Assembly: GCA_037903475.1 (NCBI GenBank)
Contig: JBAJFG010000034.1
Coordinates: forward strand, 310,001 to 374,000
Length of the DNA: 64,000 nucleotides
Source of the DNA: Ancylostoma caninum
Taxonomy: Eukaryota; Nematoda; Chromadorea; Rhabditida; Ancylostomatidae
Reading direction: 5' to 3'
The notes under the pieces are model-generated. The model did not search any database. It had not been told where the DNA came from and saw nothing but the letters and a program-made list of their open reading frames with translations. The first letter of the stretch is position 1. Each line of letters begins with the position of its first letter. Below, in pieces: positions 5,801-56,711 of this stretch. The position numbers and the translations under genes are program-made.

Positions 5801-6450
5801 TAGTTAGCCACTGCGGTATCCCGCTTAATGGGTGGGTCAGCAGTATCCTTCTCCCAGAATTGGGGAGATTGGGAGTCAAAGAAGTCGCTCACCGCCCCTT
5901 CAACATCTTCAATTTTGCCGAATTTTCTCTTAGGTAAGATTGCGTTGAGGAAGCGAAGTAAGTGACAGTCGGAGGGGACAATGTCAGGGGGATAGGGTGG
6001 GTGGGGAACCGTGTCCTAGGCATGCTCCTCCAATTTTTCATGGGTCTCCTTAGCCGTATGGAACCTAGCGTTATCGTAGAGTAAATGGGCGGAAGCTCGT
6101 CTCGACCGAACAGCATCAGCGAGTTTCTGGAGCTGATTGACGTACAGTCCGGTCCGGCAGCCACTGCAAATGGGCGCCGGCGGGCGCCGGCCGCCGCCAC
6201 CCTCCGACGCCCCGGTATTAATGAGCTATAAATCACTCGAGCTTGGGAGAAAACGAAGAAAAATACAATTTTAGTCCATAGTAGACAGGGTAGATAAGCC
6301 TAACCCTATGCTTAAGAATGGGTTTAAGGCTTAGGCTTAGGCTTCACAGGAGGACAGGAGTGGCCCCACCCAACTCCCTTTTCACCTAAATTTCTAAGAT
6401 AAACTACGATAAGTGTAAATGTAAGTATTAGTGTATTTTGCATGGCGTGC

Positions 6451-6524
6451 GCGCATAGCTCAGTGGGTTGAGCGAATGATCCACGTTGGGGTGGTCAGGG
6501 GATCGAATCTTGCCCTGTGCCCCC
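6451..6524 (+). other. tRNA-like module 1 (Pol III box A/B-like)
   Basis: TAGCTCAGTGGGTTGAGC matches the tRNA D-arm and box A. GGGGATCGAATCTTGCCC matches a T-arm and box B at a spacing usual for tRNAs. The acceptor stem is poor and this is a repeat component, so it is read as tRNA-derived, SINE-like, rather than a working tRNA. Equivalent copies are at 41561-41635 (plus) and 26025-26098 (minus). Confidence 0.6.
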
Positions 6525-6595
6525 GTTTTGCAAATACACATGGTATGCTGCCTACGACTGCTGCAGTTATCTAACAAACTTCAACATAAAAAGTA

Positions 6596-6660
6596 GCCCG
6601 GATGGCTCAGTGGTTTGAGTGGCAGATTGCAATCTGTCCCTATCGCTGGTTCCACTCCGT
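6596..6660 (+). other. tRNA-like module 2 (Pol III box A/B-like)
   Basis: GCCCGGATGGCTCAGTGGTT resembles an acceptor plus D-arm. GCAGATTGCAATCTGT forms an anticodon-like stem-loop. GCTGGTTCCACTCC is box B-like. It resembles a degenerate tRNA without a matching 3' acceptor strand. Copies are at 41706-41771 (plus) and 25885-25950 (minus), unusually well conserved compared with flanking sequence. Confidence 0.6.
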
Positions 6661-7560
6661 CGGAGATCCAGAGTTAAGTATCGCAGTGTTTGGGGTTCAC
6701 TGCTTGGAACGTCCCCCGTGATCTCCTTCGGGTAGTCCAGGAAGGCATCCGGCAACGTTTTGCATAAATTTCGAAGATAAACTACGATAAGTGTAAGTGT
6801 AAGTAATAATAATAGTGTAAGTAATAGTGAAAAACCACTTTTTCAAAGTTGAGGGAAACCGGGAGAGAGTAACTCCGCCGTAAAGGACTGCTCCACGAAA
6901 GATAAATGACAGCGGTAGAACTACTTCGCAATGGATATGGAACAATTTATACGGATTTCAATTATTTCTGAGGATCCCGAATTGGATGAGCTTTATTATT
7001 CAGATGGGATAACTGAAGTACTGTGTCCATCTATAGAAGAATAACGGCCATTTTTGTATTCGCGAAGCAGTGTACTATAGCAGAAAATGGAAGAGTTGGC
7101 TTCGCTTATTGTGTATTCAGAAATCTTTCCCCATGAAAATCACAAAAATGAAAAAACGTGAAAGTTGTGAAAATGGTCCCCTGCTTTATAGCCTTAACAT
7201 ATCCACTGCACTCTGTCTACTATGGACTAAAATTGTATTTTTCTTCGCTTTCTCCCAAGCTCGAGTGATTTATAGCTCATTAATACCGGGGCGCCGGAGG
7301 GTGGCGGCGGCCGGCGCCCGCCGGCGCCCATTTGCAGTGGCTGCCGGACCCGACTGTAAATGTTACCGGGTGATGGTGTGCCCTTGCGAGGGCTGGTCGT
7401 AATACACCATTCCTCGCGAATCCCAGAAGCAGCAAGGCAGCCACTTGCTGGGGTGGAGGTACGGTTTGGCGGGTGTTCTCCTCCAGGGAGTCACATGGCA
7501 CCATGCGACTCAGAATCATAAAGGGTCCAACTCTCATCTTCAGCGATCAGGTCTTAGAAA

Positions 7561-15200: not shown

Positions 15201-15515
15201 ACTCTTGATCCAGAACTGAACCGAACCAGTTTCTGGTCTCCAGCGATGATACAGTAACCCATCGCAATCGCTGTGCAAACGTGCTCTGCACAGTTTCCAG
15301 AATTTTTTAAAGCGCATTTATAGATGCTGACGCTTTGTATAGGAAGATTAACCGTGAACGAGATGTCTTTTACTCTTCCGCGTGGTCATTATTTTAGCAA
15401 CACTGTTACTCATAACCTCATCGCCATGAAGGACCAAGAATTTTATATTCGTCGATTTGAGTTAGATACTTATTTCTTAGCACTATATACGTATTAGGAG
15501 TGTAGCTTAGCTATG
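12215..15515. other. Intergenic, no recognised gene
   Basis: AT-rich with worn repeats. Near 14085-14113 the minus strand reads TTAGGTTGGACAATAAGTTC, a mariner-type end without an evident partner. I see no convincing exon chain. Confidence 0.4.
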
Positions 15516-15717
15516 TACAGGAAGCTCCAAATGTCCGCAGTCGAGAGGGGCGTGGCCACGACGCGGCTTTAGGCAGAGACACAGGTGCTCTACATGCTGC
15601 CACTGGTTGTCTGCGGAGTCAGAAAGCCAGAGGCAGCATAGAGAGCGCCTGTGTCTGATCAAGGAGCCGCGCCGTGGCCACGCCCCTCTTGACCGCAGAC
15701 ATTTGGGGCTTCCTGTA
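15516..15717. mobile_element. 202-bp palindromic MITE, Tc1/mariner type (family 1, copy 2)
   Basis: Same family as 421-623, inserted in the opposite orientation: TACAGGAAGCTCCAAATGT at the left, ACATTTGGGGCTTCCTGTA at the right, with TA at both edges. The interior matches the reverse complement of copy 1, with scattered substitutions. Confidence 0.9.
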
Positions 15718-17067
15718 TATATGATAAAACGAGACCAGTCTGGCCAGTATTCACATATCCTGACATCCTCCTTCCCGTACCTCGTTTCAATGCTCTGTAC
15801 TAAGACTAAAGAACAAAAATGAAATAAGTGGTGAGTGAATAGATGTCCTCCCTGATTTGATCAAAAAGACATCCTCATGCCTTTTCAATCATATGTTGGC
15901 CTAGTAGCAATACCTGCTAGCACTGAAATCCTTGCGATAGTTACTCTCTGAAGTTTGTAGAAGTTTAACACGTTGTTGGTGATGGTTTCAGATTCGCAAT
16001 GATTAAATCTCGGATGCATAGTTGAATTATCTATAGTAACGTTTGACCTGCCCAAATTTACCCTTTACCTGACGCTCATCGACATTTTCACAAATGGGTG
16101 ACGTATTCAATACTCATGTGTTACCCATGGATGGGTAATCATACCCATGAGAAAGAGATCCTTCCAATGAATCATACATCCGAGTCCAGATGAACAGACA
16201 CATTTTTGCCAGGTTCAGTATATGAGTATTTCGTCGTGCTGCATGGCATTAACGTTTGTTGAGTTGAAGTTTCTTTTTTCAAAATTTCTGTACAAAAGCA
16301 TAAAATGCATTACATTGAACATTATATTAGGTTGTCGGGAAATGATTGAGACACTCCGGATTTTTTCCAATCTTCGAACTTTTTCTCTTCTATTAAAGAA
16401 CTACATGAAATGCTGTAATGATCATGTGCACCTGTCACCTGGGGCCAGCTGTCGGGGACAGATCCAGCACTGCGGGGTCAGTAATCATGTCAAAACAGGT
16501 CGAAGAAGTCATCAGTCACTGATCAAAAATCGTCAAACTTAGCGAAGTGCTGCTTGACCAGGGAGAACTTCAGCGACCAGGAAAGGTGTTGTTTAGAGAG
16601 CACGATGTTGGGCAAGTGTGGTGTGTATGGCGTTGTGGTCCGTGCCTGCTCCTCCAAGTGCCGATGAGTTAACAAATCAACATATTTGAGGGTGCGTTTT
16701 GTACAGCAAAACGCACCCTCAAATATGTTAATGTCTCTGTTTCCTATCAACGCGGCTGTCGCTCCGATTTGACTATTGTAAGTGTTGATGTTGCCCACCA
16801 TGCTGCTTGCCGGCAACTCTGGTAGAACACATCCTGCACTTATGCTCAGGAGATCGCAAAATAGGAAAATGGCTACGAGGAGTCATATCGCTTGAAACAA
16901 AGCGTTATGAACGACGGCTCACGGTTGCATTGCTGGCGATCACCGGTCCGAATGAGACGACGACGTTGCTGTCCCTCTTGCTCGCATTGGCGCTCTACGG
17001 GAGCTCGTGCAAGAAAATCGCTCGAATTGGTTGCTCGTCCATTTTCGCTCCTCGCTAACAAACGGCT
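15718..17067. other. Intergenic with a worn mariner-like end
   Basis: TATTAGGTTGTCGGGAAATG at 16327-16346 looks like the start of a mariner-type TIR. The following sequence has no intact transposase. It contains the perfect hairpin at 16679-16729. Confidence 0.45.
16679..16729. repeat. Perfect 23-bp hairpin with 5-base loop
   Basis: AACATATTTGAGGGTGCG... and its exact complement ...CGCACCCTCAAATATGTT, arms of 23 bp (16679-16701 and 16707-16729), loop TACAG. The perfect match in a decayed neighbourhood points to a young fold-back, or a small-RNA precursor-like structure. Confidence 0.85.
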
Positions 17068-17542
17068 CCTTACGCGCAATCCGCGGAAAATTTTCGAGAG
17101 CGCCCAGCATGCGGCGCGTGCGCGGCACGGCCCTCTTGTGGCCGCGGTCCCCAGTCGTTCGTCAGATTCTTGGCCCAGGTGAGCGTTTTCTTTCATTTTT
17201 TCTTTAACTGAGGTTCATCTGAAGCTATAAGGCCTGTGGCTGACCGATATCGACTGCACGGCCCCACATGCCTCATATTTTGCACGTTTTCTCCATCTAT
17301 GCCCCAAATGCTTGTTTTTATTACTTTTATGAGGCATGCCGGGCCGTCTGGTCGACATCGGTCAGCCACAGGCCTCACACCTTCAGACAAACTTTGATCA
17401 AAGAAAAAAAAATAAAGGAAAAACACTCACCTGGGACAAAAATCTGACCAACGACAGGGGACCGCTGCCACAAGAGAACCGCGCCGCGCACGCGCCCCAT
17501 GCTGGGCGCACTCAAAAATTTTCCGCCGATTGCGCGTAAGGA
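17068..17542. mobile_element. 475-bp fold-back element with splice donor-like arms
   Basis: Both halves are inverted copies: TCCTTACGCGCAATC at the left mirrors the right edge. Internal mirrored landmarks are the GGCGCGTGCGCGGC block, CAGATT.TTG..CCCAGGTGAG, AGGCCTGTGGCTGACCGAT and GGCATGCCTCATA near the centre. It is GC-rich and CpG-rich. Each arm carries CCAGGTGAG, a perfect splice donor motif, pointing outward from opposite strands. No coding capacity is evident. Confidence 0.85.
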
Positions 17543-23110: not shown

Positions 23111-26100
23111 ATGGACGAATTTCGAGAGCGCATCAGTAATACGCTTCGAATCGAGGACAACAAACTCGTACGAGAGTTGCTGGCTGAAACTATTGGCACA
23201 TTCTTTCTACTGGTAAGTACACAAGTTGCCATGAATAGTAGTTTTAGAATCAGTACACAAGTTGCCATGAATAGTAGTTTTAGAATCAATCTAAAACCTA
23301 AAGGAAAAAAATCAATTTGGCTTAAGTTTGTTGCCAAGTATAGGTTTCGTGCCAGAACTGACAACGACTTCGAATAAAGACTCGAAAAGTTCAAAAATTC
23401 GAATATTTGAAAGCAAGAGAGTTCTACAGCCCATATTGTCTTTCTTCAAGGTTGTATTGCTCTCTCTCTATTTAAATTTCTCATCTCCTCTCCTTCTTCC
23501 TCGCTTTCTAGCTTTCTCTCTTTCTCTGTCCCTCTTCCTCCATCTCTCTCTCCTCTCTATGTCTATTTCTTTTCTCTTTTTCTCTCGAACATCTGAATTT
23601 ACGGCTCATTTGAGATCGAATACTCAAATTTGAATGCATTTAATGCATTATTCGGTTTTAAATATGGTACTAGATCTTTTAGACCCTATGCAAAGCGACT
23701 CCATCAATCCTTGAAAATTTGTTGATCCTAGCATTTTAACACGGGACTTTAATGCCTAAACTTTTCTCCTGAACAAACTTGTAGGGATAACTGAATAAAT
23801 TCTATCAACTTCAGATCCATGGAATGTAAAAATTACTGTGTAATCCATGGAATTTAAAAATTATTGTAGAGTTGTACAGATGTAAATTGTTCCCGATAAT
23901 TTTCACCAAAACTGCGCCAGAAGCTGACATTTTGTCCGCCCCTATCTCAATCTTCTTCTCTGCAACTTCTGATTCTTCCTATTCACTTAATTAATCTTCT
24001 TGAATAGGGAATATCACGACGGACTGGAAGTCTTCTAGGTTTTTCCAAGTCATTACAATTCAGCTCATCGGTACAGCAGCAAATATCCAAGCTGCAGCAT
24101 CGGATGGTGGAAATATGACGTCATGCCATATAGCCTGGGGTATTGGATTCATGTTTGCTGTATATTTGGCTGCTAGCGTATCAGGTATGCTCAACTACAC
24201 CTATTATCCGGAAAATTTATACTTCCTAAAATCCAGGCGCTCACCTGAACCCGGCTATATCGTTGGCTCAATGTGTACTCGGCAACATCCCAATGTGGAA
24301 GGTTTTCCTCTATTCAATTGCTCAACTTATCGGTGCTTACTTAGGAACTGCTGTTAGTTACTTTGGCCATCATGGTAAGTTCAACGAGTAGTAATAAATT
24401 TTTGGCTGATAAATCGATTAACCTGTGATATGGCAAAGTGCCAAGTGAGACTAATATGTGCTATTGTTTTCCTAGAAAAATCCGGAAAGCCATTGCCACA
24501 GAAGATCATTCCTCCCTACTTTTTTTCGTTGAGAAACTAATCTGAGAGGGCATCTTCTTTAAAAACAATCCCTTTCATCCCTGGATTTTCTCCTTCCAGG
24601 TGATCTCTGGAAGCTCGACGGTGGAATCCGTCACGTTACTGGATCGCAGGCCACCGCTGGCTTGTTCGCCACCTTTCCCTCGCCCCAAATGAGCGTCTGG
24701 GGAAGTCTTCTCGATCAGGTAATCCCTGTACCCAGCTGTTTTACGTACTAGTATTACTTCCATATTCAGATCATTGGCACGGCTATTCTCGCAGGTCTGG
24801 TGTGCCTTATCACTGACAAGAGGCACAAAATCCCTCCTGGCTTTGTGCCACCACTGGCTGGAGCGATCATGAGTATGGTAAGAGTGAATATCCTATAAGG
24901 ATTCGCAAGGATTATTAGGATTTTTCTAATATCCCAGGTCGCGATGACCTTCGGCGCCAATGGTGGATTCGCCATCAATCCGGCCCGAGATCTCGGCCCC
25001 AGGCTGTTCATCCTCTGTGCTGGTTACGGCTGGGAGGTGTTCAGGTAAGCAGGTTCTCGGTCAATTAAAACTTTTGTGCTTGGGAAATCAGTCCACATTA
25101 AGGCAACGACTCGAGAAACAACGATCACTCTAACCAATAGGATTAGAGTGGCTGTTAAGTAACCTTGACTGCAATTAGATTCTGATTCAGCGGTGATTGT
25201 TCTGTAACGAAAACTGCCAAACTCGCAAAATCGAAGATCGTAACGAAATACAGGATGGTATCGAATTTCCTGAAAATTAGACCGAACATGAATACAATTT
25301 TAGGTGGTTATTTGAAGCAGTAAGGTCAAAAGGCCAATAATGCTGTTTATTATAGGCTGAACTCATATTACTTGAGTAATCGCTAGTTAGGGGAGGTTCT
25401 CAGTACAGTTTTCTGCTATAGTACACTGCTTAGCGAATACAAAAATGGCCGTTATTCTTCTATAGATGGACACAGTACTTCAGTTATCCCATCTGAATAG
25501 TAAAGCTCATCCAACTCGGGATCCTCAGAAATAATTGAAATCCGTATAAATTGTTCCATATCCATTGCGAAGTAGTTCTACCGCTGTCATTTATCTTTCG
25601 TGGAGCAGTCCTTTACGGCGGGGTTACTCTCTCCCGGTTTCCCTCAACTTTGAAAAAGTGGTTTTTCACTATTACTTACACTATTACTATTACTTACACC
25701 TACACTTATCGTAGTTTATTTTCGAAAGAGTTTTCCACTATTACTTACACTTATACTTATCGTAGTTTATCTTCGAAATTTATGCAAAACGTTGCCGGAT
25801 GCCTTCCTGGACTACCCGAAGGAGATCACGGGGGACGTTCCAAGCAGTGAACCCCAAACACTGCGATACTTAACTCTGGATCTCCAACGGAGTGGAACCA
25901 GCGATAGGGACAGATTGCAATCTGCCACTCAAACCACTGAGCCATCCGGGCTACTTTTTATGTTGGAGTTTGTTAGATAACTGCAGCAGTCGTAGGCGGA
26001 ATGCTATATGTATTTGCAAAACGAGGCACAGGGCAGGATTCGATCCCCTGACCACCACAACGTCGATCATTCGCTCAACCCACTGAGCTATGCGCGCACG

Positions 26101-29100
26101 CGACGCTGCATACAAATGGTGTCCACTATTACTTAAACTTACACTTGTCGTAGTTTATCTTAGAAATTTAGGTGAAAAGGGAGTTGGGTGGGGCCACTCC
26201 TGTGAAGCCTAAGCCTAAGCCTTAAACCCATTCTTAAGCATAGGGTTAGGCTTATCTACCCTACCCAGTGCAACAAGTGACGCTGTGCGCGCATTTCTGC
26301 TTGCTTCCAAATACTCTCTACGTCGTCAAATTTATGGTCAGGAACAGTCTCGAACGATAGTGATGTTACGGGAAATTGGCAGGTAGTAATTGGTCATGAA
26401 CAGTAGTTGATGTGACAACTGTACTAGAGCCGCGTGCGGTCTAAACGATCAATACTATACTGTACCGCAAGTTGTTGCGTGCGGCTTAAACGATCAATAT
26501 TGTACGGTCTCCATCCGCTGAACGTCGTATTTGATGTCGAACGAACTTTACTTCAGAACTACGGCAACCATATGGGAGGCCATTTCCCAGCAATGTTTGG
26601 CTCTCTTATACTACTTACCTAAATGGTGATCCTTTGAGGAGTCCGAGAAAATGCCTTAGATTTCTCAAGGATTCTTCTTTTCGGATCTTGCGGGGCTCCT
26701 ACATTGTTCACTTTTACCATAATCACACCTTCCATTCATGCAACTGTCCCCAGCTTAAAATAAACTGCACTATTTCAGTGCTTATGGATTCTACTTCTGG
26801 ATTCCACTGGTTGGCCCATTAATCGGTGCTCTCATCGGAGCCTGGCTGTACAAGCTTTTCGTCGGACTTCACGGACTTAACGAGGATCTCGATCTCACTT
26901 CCAAAGGTTATAATGTAAGTGTACCAGTAGGTTACAGTGGCGACTCTCCTCGACAAAAGCCGCCCATGCGCTATCAGTAATCCAGGAGCTCCGGAATCTT
27001 CATCTATGGTTAATCTCGAGGTTGAATTCGTCGCTTGTATATTTTTAAGCAGTTCTATGTTTGCTTGCATGTTAATTGCTAATCAAAGATCTGATAGAAT
27101 TTTGTATGGATTGTACAGTGATAATTTGCTGGTTTAATAGTGCATTTTGGTTCATTCGCATTTGATTTATGAGTAATTAAGAATTTAATAAAGTCACTCA
27201 ACCACATTTGCATGTGAGCAGCTTCCGCCTTTATTTGCTCGGCAATGTTGCGTTCTTTGCTTCTTTTTTGTTTTTTTTTATACTTCATATATTTTCTATA
27301 GCGGTTTCCGGGATAGAAAAAAATATTCGCTTTGAAACCCTTCAATTTCTCTGCGTTTATCCGGAATACTTACCATAAATGATAAGATATATACTTCAAG
27401 GTACAACCATTCGTAGTGAATGAGTTTTTTATTTTATATTTTTTTTCGTCGCATTCAGTTTATAACAGTAACCTCAAATCCGTTTTCGGTCCCTTTTTCT
27501 CACCTGCTGCATGCAGTGAATATACATTGGACCGAATAAAAATCGAATAATTTTGGTATTTCAATTACCAAATCAAGAAACAATTAAATGTCCAAATATT
27601 CGAGAATCAGAAAGCCCTAAAGCTCTTCGTCTCCCTCATTCAGCATTAAATTGGTCTCTAGTGGTGGAACATTCGAATTTTCCGTTTATTCGAAGTCGAA
27701 TATTTTCGCTTCCAAATATCGAATAGTTCGAATAAATGGAAAATTCGAATGTTCCAATATAGGAGGCTAATACAGCACTGTATGGAAGAGAAGAACGGCT
27801 TCAGAGCTTCCTCAATCTCGAGCACCTGGATGTTTAAATGGTTTTTCGAATTGGTAATTGAAGTAACAAAATTATTCGTTTTCTATTCGGTCCAATATCT
27901 AGCAGTGAATTCCGTGAGCGCCTGGTTTTTTTTTTATTTCCCGGCTTGTCCGAGGAGGCAGATTTGGATTCCGGGAACAGATCCTCATAGAAGACGTCGT
28001 GGAAGTACATAGCTAAATCTGAATAATTTCTGAAAGAGTCAATTATGTTCAGTTAGCAGGTTAGTTTAAAATAGTAGAGGACATTCGCAGCATAATTTAT
28101 CAGAAGCGGAATTTCAGCGCTTCGGGCAAGGTGGGAAAATTTTTTCCTAATTTGCTTCTAAGTGTCTTTCTCACTAGAAAGTTGGACAGTAGCAGCCAGA
28201 CTGAAGATGTTCTGAAGATTGGATTGAAATGCTACAAAACGGCTGCTTGAATCCATAGATAAGCCCGGGTACGACCGTCAGAATGCTGGGCTCAGTTTGC
28301 TGATGCAAGTAAGGCTTAGAACAGCCTCGTTCCCTCAGAGAGATCTTGAGTCATTTTTGCTTAATCGCTTTGTAATCATTATCAAGAGCACGAGCACGAG
28401 CGATGCTTCAGCTAAAACCGTTGTCAAAAGTTTATTTTTAGTTGTTTTGCTCGGAAATTCCTGGCTGGACCAAGGCATTTGGCGTCACAGAAAATATGCG
28501 CTGAAACTTTGCCTCGAAATTTTTCTCCATTTCATTTTTTTCTTTCACAACTCTTCGAGGAATGTTTATGTTGAAAAATCACTTCAACCGAGTTCTATCA
28601 AATAAGGTTTACCCCAGCAGAAAACATGGAACTGCAGCAGAGAAATAAGCAAGCCAACGATGTACAGTAACTTATGCTCCTTCACCGCTGTATATGCCAA
28701 ACAACCTGATCCATGGTTACTGTGCAAGGAGATGTAAGATCCACTGAATCAGTCCTTTCTCTAGACACTACAGAAGCATTTGCACATCCTGCACCAATCT
28801 CTAGGCACAATAACACCCACAAATCAAAAAATGACATCAGATTTTCAGTTAACTAGTCAGTGAAACCGTAGATTTTACCGTAACTTTTTAAGACACATCT
28901 CAGTTATTCATAGCCCAAGCTATATGTAGAATTTTATGTATGTAAACGAAAATTCATATTACAAAATGAATCTGTTTGCTATACCGTATAGGCGAATCCA
29001 CCGCCTTTAGGAGAAATCAAACATATTTGCCAAACATGAAGGTATGAAGAAGAGGTTCTTGTTGATCTTGGCTCCGCTGTTCCACGAGATATAGACCTAC

Positions 29101-36260: not shown

Positions 36261-36511
36261 TCAATGGCAGTGGCCATCTACTGCCTCGAGAAGGACGCAG
36301 CGCGTCTGCGCCGCGCGCGCCGGAATCGGTGTCGCCTGCTGTCGGAATGCTATTTGTGGTCACTTTCTTCTCGATTTGGTCAAAGATCCTCAAAATCAGG
36401 TGGAAAAGCTGCTAGATATAGCATAACAGCAGCAGAAAACATCGTTTGCGGCGCACGCGGCGCGGTTGCGCGGCGTACTTCTCGAGGCCGCGGATGGGCC
36501 ACCGCCATTGA
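36261..36511. mobile_element. 251-bp MITE with GC-rich terminal inverted repeats
   Basis: TCAATGGCAGTGGCCATC and GCCTCGAGAAG.ACGC at the left are mirrored at the right (CTTCTCGAGGC, GGCCACCGCCATTGA). Arms are about 65 bp, CpG-rich and imperfect. It lies just downstream of the tetraspan gene. Confidence 0.8.
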
Positions 36512-38090: not shown

Positions 38091-38347
38091 CAGTGGCGGA
38101 AGCAGAAAGTGGGTTGGAGGTGGGGGAGGGGGCGGGCTGGGAGAAGAATTGGGGTCTCCGTCGCTTTGGAGACCCAGACGGATAATAAAATTACTAGAAG
38201 TATCAATTATAATAATAAATAATTAATAAAAATTATATTAAAATAAGTAATAAAAATAAACAATCAAAAACAAACCAATAGAAGATTTTTATTTGTACTG
38301 TACAGACAATAGGAGCAGCCTCCCTGCGTCTGCCACGGGGTTTTTCA
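38091..38347. mobile_element. hAT-like MITE, 257 bp (copy 1)
   Basis: Starts CAGTGGCGGAAGCAG and ends with a worn CTGCGTCTGCCAC. It is flanked by a perfect 8-bp duplication CCTCTTAG (38083-38090 and 38348-38355), the hallmark of hAT insertions. The interior is AT-rich (ATAATAAATAATTAATAA type) with GAGACCC near the left. A related copy is at 39524-39779. Confidence 0.88.
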
Positions 38348-39523: not shown

Positions 39524-39779
39524 CAGTGGCGGAAGCAGAAAATGGGCGGGAGGGGGGTGGGAAAACGTGGGTTCTCTGCTGTATTGGGGACCCAGATTAA
39601 AAATAAAACCGATAAAAACCTTAATTATAATAACAAATAATAAATGAAAATTATATCAAAAATAATAATAAAAGTAAACAATTGAAAATAATCCTATGCA
39701 AGATTTTTATTTGTGTTGTAAAATAATTTCGAAAATTTGGCGACACATTCTCGCCCCCCCCCCCCTGCGTCCGCCACTG
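39524..39779. mobile_element. hAT-like MITE, 256 bp (copy 2)
   Basis: CAGTGGCGGAAGCAGAAAAT at the left and CTGCGTCCGCCACTG at the right. Flanks TCATGGAT and CCATGGAT match at seven of eight positions. It shares its interior with copy 1 (GGGGACCCAGA, TTATATCAAAAATAATAA, AAGATTTTTATTTGT). It contains a run of 12 C near the right end. Confidence 0.88.
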
Positions 39780-41258: not shown

Positions 41259-42467
41259 CAGTCCGGTCCGGCAGCCACTGCAAATGGGCGCCAGCGGGCG
41301 CCGGCCGCCGCCACTCTCCGGCGCCCCGGTACTAATGAGCTATAAATCACTCGAGCTTGGGAGAAAGCGAAGAAAAATACAATTTTAGTCCATAGTAGAC
41401 AGGGTAGATAAGCCTAACGCTATCCTTAAGAATGGGTTTAAGACTTAGGCTTAGGCTTCACAGGAGTGGCCCCACCCAACTCCCTTTTCACCTAAATTTC
41501 TAAGATAAACCACGATAAGTGTAAGTAAGATTGGACACTATTTGTATGTTGCATCGCGTGCGTGCATAGCTCAGTGGGTTGAACGAATGATCGACGTTGT
41601 GGTGGTCAGGGGATCGAATCCTGTCCTGTGCCCCCCTTTTGCAAATACATATAGTATGCTGCCCACTACTGCTGCAGTTATCTAACAAACTCCAACATAA
41701 AAAGTAGCCCGGATGGCTCAGTGGTTTGAGTGGCAGATTGCAATCTGTCCCTATCGCTGGTTCCACTCCGTTGGAGATCCAGAGTTAAGTATCGCAGTGT
41801 TTGGGGTTCACTGCTTGGAACGTCCCCCGTGATCTCCTTCAGGTAGTCCAGGAAGGCATCCGGCAACGTTTTGCATAAATTTCGAAGATAAACTACGATA
41901 AGTGTAAGTGTAAGCAATAGTAATAGTGTAAGTAATAGTGAAAAACCACTTTTTCAAAGTTGAGGGAAACCGGGAGAGAGTAACTCCGCCGTAAAGGACT
42001 GCTCCACGAAAGATAAATGACAGCGGTAGAACTACTTCGCAATGGATATGAAACAATTTATACGGATTTCAATTATTTCTGAGGATCCCGAATTGGATGA
42101 GCTTTATTATTCAGATGGGATAACTGAAGTACTGTGTCCATCTATAGAAGAATAACGGCCATTTTTGTGTTCGCGAAGCAGTGTACTATAGCAGAAAATG
42201 GAAGAGTTGGCTTCGCTTATTGTGTATTCAGAAATCTTTCCCCATGAAAATCACAAAAATGAAAAAACGTGAAAGTTGTGAAAATGGTCCCCTGCTTTAT
42301 AGCCTTAACATATCCACTGCACTCTGTCTACTATGGACTAAAATTGTATTTTTCTTCGCTTTCTCCCAAGCTCGAGTGATTTATAGCTCATTAATACCGG
42401 GGCGCCGGAGGGTGGCGGCGGCCGGCGCCCGCCGGCGCCCATTTGCAGTGGCTGCCGGATTCGACTG
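41259..42467. mobile_element. Composite TIR element with telomere-like hairpin and two tRNA-like modules (copy C)
   Basis: 1209 bp flanked by TA (41257-41258 and 42468-42469). Collinear with copy A throughout and clearly very similar, so the two copies are recent. TTAGGC units are at 41445-41456; tRNA-like modules at 41561-41635 and 41706-41771; TIRs about 145 bp. No transposase or reverse transcriptase reading frame is seen. Confidence 0.92.
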
Positions 42468-56238: not shown

Positions 56239-56711
56239 GTTAAAGGCAGCAGGAGCTGAAATTCTCGACTCTGAGCTGAGCTGCCGGTAGTGAATTACAG
56301 ACTCAGCACATCATAAATGTGAAACGAACACAGACAATGGTGGCCCACCGGCAGAGAAAATGGAACATTCGTCGCGAACACGCCTGGCCGTGTTCGTGCG
56401 CGGACGAGTTTTCCCCGGCGCGAAAGCTATTGCGGCGCGTGGTTTTGGCCGAGTCCCGCCATGAAACCCTGTGAATTGAATGCATTTCGTTTTCCCTTTG
56501 CGCCAAACCAAGCACCGCAATGGCTTTTGCGGCGTGGAAAGCTCGTCCGCGCGCGAACACGGCCAGGAGTGTTCACGACGAATGTTTCATTTTCTCTGCA
56601 GGTAAGCCATGATTGTCTGTGTTCGTTTCACATTTATGGTGTGCTGAATCTGTACTTCATCACCCACAGCTCAGCTCGGAGTCGAGGATTTCAGCTCCTG
56701 CTGCCTTTAAC
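56239..56711. mobile_element. 473-bp fold-back element flanked by TTAA
   Basis: GTTAAAGGCAGCAGGAGCTG at the left is mirrored at the right (CAGCTCCTGCTGCCTTTAAC). Further mirrored landmarks are CTCGACTC.GAGCTGAGCTG, AATGTGAAACGAACACAGACA, CATTCGTCG.GAACAC and GTTTTGG.C around the centre. TTAA at both edges could be a piggyBac-type target duplication. The arms are GC-rich. It is non-coding. Confidence 0.85.

Follow-up and report, generated by a model that had tools for sequence, protein, structure and literature searches.

The window analysed here is a 64,000-nucleotide stretch of an Ancylostoma caninum contig (JBAJFG010000034.1). Its plus strand carries two full copies of a repeated element, copy 1 at 6145..7356 and copy 2 at 41259..42467, which are collinear and 95.8% identical over 1,220 aligned columns, as the original prediction had described. 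A third copy, on the minus strand at 25409..26262, consists of the internal part only (query 143-943); it has no terminal inverted repeats (TIRs) and contains an extra copy of a direct repeat. The features of copy 1 given below lie on the plus strand unless indicated otherwise.

Copy 1 is bounded by a left TIR of 144 bp (6145..6288) and a right TIR (7213..7356, minus strand). In the consensus the TIRs match over 144 bp with a single mismatch, at position 6, in agreement with the length of about 145 bp first proposed. The left TIR is followed by a hairpin (6296..6344) with two exact TTAGGC units on one arm and one GCCTAA on the other. The telomere-like hairpin of the original prediction is thus present as a hairpin, but its likeness to a telomere is weak because it has no more than these units. 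A true telomere seed or tandem TTAGGC array is ruled out, given that there are two exact units only. Two direct repeats of about 44-46 bp, 93% identical to each other, are found 5' (repeat a, 6387..6430) and 3' (repeat b, 6765..6808) of two tRNA-like modules. The unit of ~389 bp that they delimit occurs as tandem multiples in some copies. No Pfam match (E<=1) was obtained for the frames overlapping the TIRs (110-133 aa) or for a 37-aa internal frame. The 3' part (consensus about 790-903) harbours a short open frame, MDMEQFIRISIISEDPELDELYYSDGITEVLCPSIEE, possibly a remnant, which has no Pfam match.

Family, ends and insertion site

We searched the genome from which the contig comes (348 Mb, 638 contigs) for the element. 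Of 1,362 candidates, 40 were scored, comprising the two full window copies and 38 from elsewhere in the genome, a sample biased toward similarity to copy 1. Their consensus is 1,215 bp long, and they diverge from it by 0.33-2.06%. Alignments covered the whole query, modules included, in 38 of the 40, the other two beginning at query 5 and 28; genome search and consensus thus support the module pair as a regular part of the family. The element is abundant. Allowing for up to two mismatches, a TIR 25-mer has 1,510 matches in the genome, and with up to three mismatches a 41-mer of module 2 has 1,218 and one of the 3' part 847, while the reversed-pattern controls for all three gave 0 matches. Among the first 30 loci by position with the exact module-2 41-mer, 23 have both TIRs, five have one and two have none.

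The ends of the element are nearly constant, with a CAGT start in 37/40 copies and an ACTG end in 40/40. The predicted TA duplication was likewise borne out: TA is found on both sides in 36 of the 40 copies (6143..6144 and 7357..7358 for copy 1), and the remaining four are flanked by TG/TA, GA/TA, TG/CA and CT/TA. The target preference is symmetric, with an A three bases before the TA in 22/40 copies and a T three bases after it in 31/40. The flanking sequences vary among the 40 copies, which therefore represent separate insertions.

Copy 1 itself splits the remnant of a mariner transposase gene (approximately 5880..7430, minus strand), pieces of which are found on both sides of the element. 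When copy 1 is removed together with one TA, the mariner frame reads through the junction, which provides the empty-site comparison called for in the original prediction. With X at its one stop, the restored frame matches proteins with solved structures, SETMAR at E 5.8e-19 and Mos1 at E 2e-11. This restored frame is the clearest evidence of TA-duplicating transposition. The bandit mariner of A. caninum, described in PMC2041818 as having 32-bp inverted repeats, and the transposase remnant at the insertion site are both Hsmar1-like, SETMAR being the best match of the remnant. In contrast with bandit as presented there, the mariner at copy 1 is a target of insertion, and the enzyme that would move our element is a putative one.

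Some copies depart from the standard structure. The ~389-bp unit, composed of one direct repeat and both modules, is present head-to-tail in two or more copies at loci L077, L078, L080, L081 and L090; such arrays are the expected outcome of unequal exchange involving the two direct repeats (6387-6430 and 6765-6808). TIR-less copies comprise that at 25409-26262 in the window, those of L063/L084, L074/L085 and L079, and one in L087. Those inspected by eye showed neither SINE-like ends nor a clear target duplication. The modules of the third window copy are 97.6% identical to the consensus, comparable to many full copies, and more diverged TIR-less copies are found at L063/L084 (90.4%) and in one unit of L079 (92.9%). 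The idea that the TIR-less copies are older, the internal unit having come first, is contradicted by the third window copy, even though those of L063/L084 and the L079 unit are more diverged. Three copies lacking the left TIR (L087:1917, L078:8263 and L066:about 1711) begin right at the hairpin base (AAGCCTAACCC), a hint of breakage at this structure. The TIR-less module copy of L084 is flanked by two exact copies of a 50-bp word (L084:2114 and L084:2624) and therefore lies in a duplicated stretch.

Two putative Pol III units

Module 1 (6449..6529) is a tRNA-like unit ending with TTTT (6526-6529). Its box A, TAGCTCAGTGG, is at 6456..6466 and its box B at 6500..6510, with the sequence GGATCGAATCT in copy 1 and GGATCGAATCC in the consensus. 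Module 2 (6596..6761) is a predicted Pol III RNA unit of ~166 nt with box A TGGCTCAGTGG at 6603..6613, box B GGTTCCACTCC at 6648..6658 and a terminal TTTT at 6758-6761. Both modules thus possess the hallmarks of type-2 Pol III units, namely an A box, a B box and a T-run terminator. Scored against consensus box motifs, each module of the element consensus has no mismatch in box A and one in box B, to which copy 1 adds a second in box B of module 1. The distance between the boxes in the consensus is 44 bp in module 1 and 45 bp in module 2. In first-order Markov shuffles of the element (plus strand), none of 3,000 equalled even one module, and five of 3,000 reached two mismatches in total.

The original prediction considered the modules to be derived from tRNAs. 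The A and B boxes at tRNA spacing support this, but tRNA models do not: ARAGORN called no tRNA in either module, and the Rfam tRNA model gave no match to them even at E<=10. The modules are therefore ruled out as tRNA genes, and their description as 'tRNA-like' rests on boxes, spacing and D-stem. Over the whole window, no Rfam family was detected at gathering score.

The predicted fold of module 2 is closed by a helix, GCCCGGATG/CATCCGGC (GCC-GGATG/CATCCGGC), located four bases 5' of the TTTT, and it contains hairpins resembling a D-arm and an anticodon arm. Its folding energy is modestly lower than that of shuffled sequences (z -1.93), 10 of 200 of which fold equally well; that of module 1 equals the shuffles (z 0.15). 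The predicted paired sites of module 2 show 28 types of variant, 11 of which preserve the pairing and 17 disrupt it, to be compared with 18% kept at random in an estimate that leaves transition bias uncontrolled. One of the variants, T479C, found in 28 units, changes a G-T pair of the D-stem to G-C.

Part of module 2 (6654..6722) gave a weak RAGATH-11-like match (Rfam RF03148) with 26.8 bits and E 0.02 in copy 1 and E 0.0068 in L009, i.e. 26.8-27.0 bits against a gathering score of 79.4. RAGATH-11 and module 2 share a 6-bp hairpin, a 9-nt loop of the UUUGGGGUU type and a downstream GAACGUCCC with the potential for a pseudoknot. Nevertheless, the spacer is 58 nt in RAGATH-11 and 2 nt in module 2, and the likeness is probably due to chance or convergence. 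Scans with RAGATH-11 patterns gave no match with the short spacer in viral contigs and none with the long spacer in bacterial and archaeal genomes; one pattern match in a viral contig had no Rfam support.

Variation along the element

The 98-bp body of module 2 (consensus 521-618) is nearly invariant, a feature absent from the original prediction. The rates given here exclude CpG sites. In the 40-copy sample, the left TIR has singletons at 1.37% per site and copy and the right TIR at 0.82%; module 1 follows with 0.74%, the 3' part with 0.53%, the tRNA-like part of module 2 with 0.32% and direct repeat b with 0.29%, the module-2 body having only 0.12%. Module 2 as a whole holds 12 of the 195 internal non-CpG singletons, for 33.9 expected (p=3e-6), and four of the 55 shared variable sites, for 9.6 expected (p=0.03).

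Further samples were based on exact 41-mers. L047-L076 are the first 30 listed places with the exact module-2 41-mer, and L077-L087 were chosen from the same list for their tandem or odd structure; among them L082-L086 are longer versions of L048, L049, L063, L074 and L052 and were excluded from the 36-locus, 105-unit and linkage counts. L001-L008, from a first search, were excluded from all counts. At the 36 loci with the exact module-2 41-mer (HSPs of at least 250 columns), substitutions amount to 0.43% in the body outside the 41-mer, 1.02% in the 21-bp tract that adjoins the body and 1.3-5.5% in the other regions.

As a sample selected outside module 2, we took all 30 exact matches to the 3' 41-mer listed on C1-C6 (HSPs of at least 170 columns), a 41-mer that is invariant here by construction. 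They represent 16 new loci and 14 earlier ones; the module-2 list contributed 12 of the latter and the 40-copy sample two. In these 30 copies, the body has two substitutions in 2,579 non-CpG cells and no singleton; considering the 16 new loci only, there are two substitutions in 1,376 cells. The tRNA-like part of module 2 is near the rest of the element in substitutions (1.61%), with 0.32% singletons. Elsewhere in the element, leaving aside the 41-mer used for selection, substitutions amount to 1.15-5.2% and singletons to 0.70-1.78%, depending on the region.

We also computed variation in 25-bp windows over 105 distinct pooled units (HSPs of at least 170 columns), which, like the 85 units of the linkage test below, combine module-2-selected loci with the other samples, so that windows 451-499 are biased low. 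The windows from 451 to 625 range from 0.25 to 1.14% and the others from 0.88 to 3.76%, with one hypervariable window at 10.4%. The lowest values of the element are found in windows 501-625; those of 451-500 are low too, with the bias due to locus choice. Upstream of 451 variation climbs from 0.70% to 2.23%, and beyond 625 it goes from 0.45% to 1.56%, both edges being near the predicted ends of the RNA. The downstream edge is not sharp in the 40-copy sample, because direct repeat b, which lies beyond the transcript, shows low variation there too. Thus, the firm claim of low variation is that for the module-2 body (521-618). The whole module-2 transcript is low in singletons, its tRNA-like part in singletons only, and in the pooled set it is low with the bias of locus choice. 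A hand count of the exact matches listed on C1-C23 gave 98 for the 41-mer of module 2 and 88 for that of the 3' part, the genome totals being 1,218 and 847; the exact share is therefore no greater for this stretch of module 2.

Class, cargo and candidate causes

Altogether, the element duplicates TA, has TIRs at fixed ends and contains no transposase gene. We take the TA and the CAGT ends to indicate the Tc1/mariner superfamily, and the enzyme is probably of that kind. Our favoured reading, to which we give a probability of about 0.7, is that of a high-copy, non-autonomous MITE of the Tc1/mariner type carrying two Pol III type-2 units as standing cargo. Its cut-and-paste movement at TA would rely on a transposase provided in trans. 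Module 1 would represent a tRNA-sized type-2 unit, and module 2 would give rise to a 166-nt tRNA-like RNA with D-arm- and anticodon-arm-like hairpins in its 5' part and a longer folded body in its 3' part, its ends closed by a helix just 5' of the T4 terminator. RNA selection, gene conversion or both would keep this body constant. The proposal of a DNA transposon with internal Pol III promoters thus holds for the TA-duplicating element and for the regular box cargo, present in the 38 copies aligned over their whole length; transcription of the modules by Pol III is predicted from their boxes and terminators.

We found no transposase associated with the TIRs of this family. Two loci with longer TIR pairs, L089 and L090, contain inserts and tandem units and no transposase-sized frame. 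L090 was rejected as an autonomous partner, its extra length being an internal tandem unit, and so was L089, whose insert is another TA-flanked element with CAGGGTGCGTC ends. This separate TIR element (L089:441-1346, CAGGGTGCGTC...GACGCACCCTG), with TA on both sides, is inserted in a copy of the family.

Our element resembles Tc1/mariner MITEs and Tc1 elements with long TIRs, e.g. Tc3 and Minos, in TA duplication, CAGT-type terminus, long TIRs, lack of internal transposase and high copy number, but it differs from them in carrying two type-2 Pol III units, one with a near-invariant body. With tRNA-derived SINEs, including twin-head ones, it shares box A/B heads at tRNA spacing and a small body; in contrast with them, its ends are fixed at the TIRs, its target duplication is the 2-bp TA, and it spreads by its TIRs. 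Type-2 Pol III RNA genes such as vault RNA have internal A and B boxes, an end-closing helix and a T-run terminator like module 2, which differs from them in being part of a transposon, with about a thousand copies, and in matching no Rfam family at gathering score. Among the open-licence titles and beginnings of abstracts listed, we found no nematode MITE or TIR element with tRNA or Pol III modules and no nematode SINE of this kind; repeat databases may already have an entry for the family. The cargo is unusual and regular, and the near-invariance of the module-2 body is its surprising part.

Selection on transposing lineages, gene conversion and homogenisation in the assembly are all possible causes of the low variation. 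If the differences in the TIRs mostly arose after insertion, they represent neutral decay, and the lower rate of the body then calls for a process acting on single copies. Gene conversion among dispersed copies, affecting the middle of the repeat and aided by the direct repeats or by transcription-linked breaks, might account for it without selection on the RNA, and we consider this quite possible, if somewhat short of an even chance. It is consistent with the tandem ~389-bp units and with the near-central position of the lowest tract, and such a broader process is favoured by the low variation, in the 40 copies, of the adjoining repeat b beyond the transcript. Furthermore, linkage between shared variants is weak, with a mean r2 of 0.013-0.028 in every distance class among 85 units, and six pairs above 0.3, namely those among 277, 279 and 287, plus 804-808, 372-412 and 419-663. 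Weak linkage allows for conversion or recurrent mutation. Nevertheless, the test has little power, since the shared variants are mostly rare (4-8 copies), and the immediate rise of variation on both sides of 451-625, near the predicted RNA ends, favours constraint on the RNA.

Another proposal concerns the origin of the cargo, and is compatible with both conversion and an assembly effect, which concern the low variation. A tRNA-derived SINE with one or two heads might have inserted long ago into a plain TIR element, after which the composite was amplified by the transposase, the boxes being passive fossils and the RNA without a role. The original prediction had raised SINE capture by a fold-back element as its alternative. 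This scenario is conceivable, but we hold it as a tentative one. The presence of two distinct tRNA-like heads, both with TTTT downstream, and the existence of the TIR-less copies are in keeping with it. However, the lack of SINE-like ends or clear target duplication in those TIR-less copies inspected is not, and one would not expect the least variable stretch of the element to lie in passive fossils. That a SINE moved the full copies is contradicted by the fixed TIR ends and the TA, and these copies show neither target duplications of variable length nor a free 3' tail.

The Pol III units of the MITE might also do more than travel with it. Module 2 could be a working non-coding RNA gene carried by a TIR transposon, made by Pol III from about a thousand copies with near-identical bodies, and used by the host or by the transposon, e.g. 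for its own spread. We regard this as unlikely; if true, the fitness of this DNA transposon would depend on a structured RNA of its own. MITEs are usually regarded as passive, without a gene product. A MITE with complete Pol III units, one with a near-invariant body, and drifting TIRs would imply that a cut-and-paste element can live from an RNA or, alternatively, that dispersed copies of an RNA gene can be kept uniform by conversion.

It is rather improbable that the constancy of the body is an artefact, with polishing or consensus calling having erased true differences within the repeat. The lowest variation does lie near the centre of a high-copy repeat of 1.2 kb, in which short reads have no anchor, but the 3' internal part, likewise far from the ends, retains 0.5-1.4% singletons. 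In the TIR-less copy of L084, a locus picked by its exact module-2 41-mer and located between direct repeats, the element sequence stops right after module 2, yet module 2 has no substitution, with many upstream. That the family is a retroelement or Helitron-like element merely resembling a TIR element is very improbable, since the near-constant CAGT...ACTG ends, the 144-bp TIRs, the TA duplication and the empty site all argue against it, and only the three copies that start at the hairpin base would fit.

The window also contains other repeats. Self-complementary fold-back repeats with other ends are found at 56239-56711, 17067-17542, 27526-27896, 15512-15721, 417-627 and 36261-36511; those at 417-627 and 15512-15721 belong to one family, with 91% identity. 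Two repeats that start with CAGTGGCGGAAGCAG, at 38091-38302 and 39524-39720, are 72% alike. Lastly, the window harbours a spectrin exon whose closest named match is from Wuchereria, followed by Trichinella.
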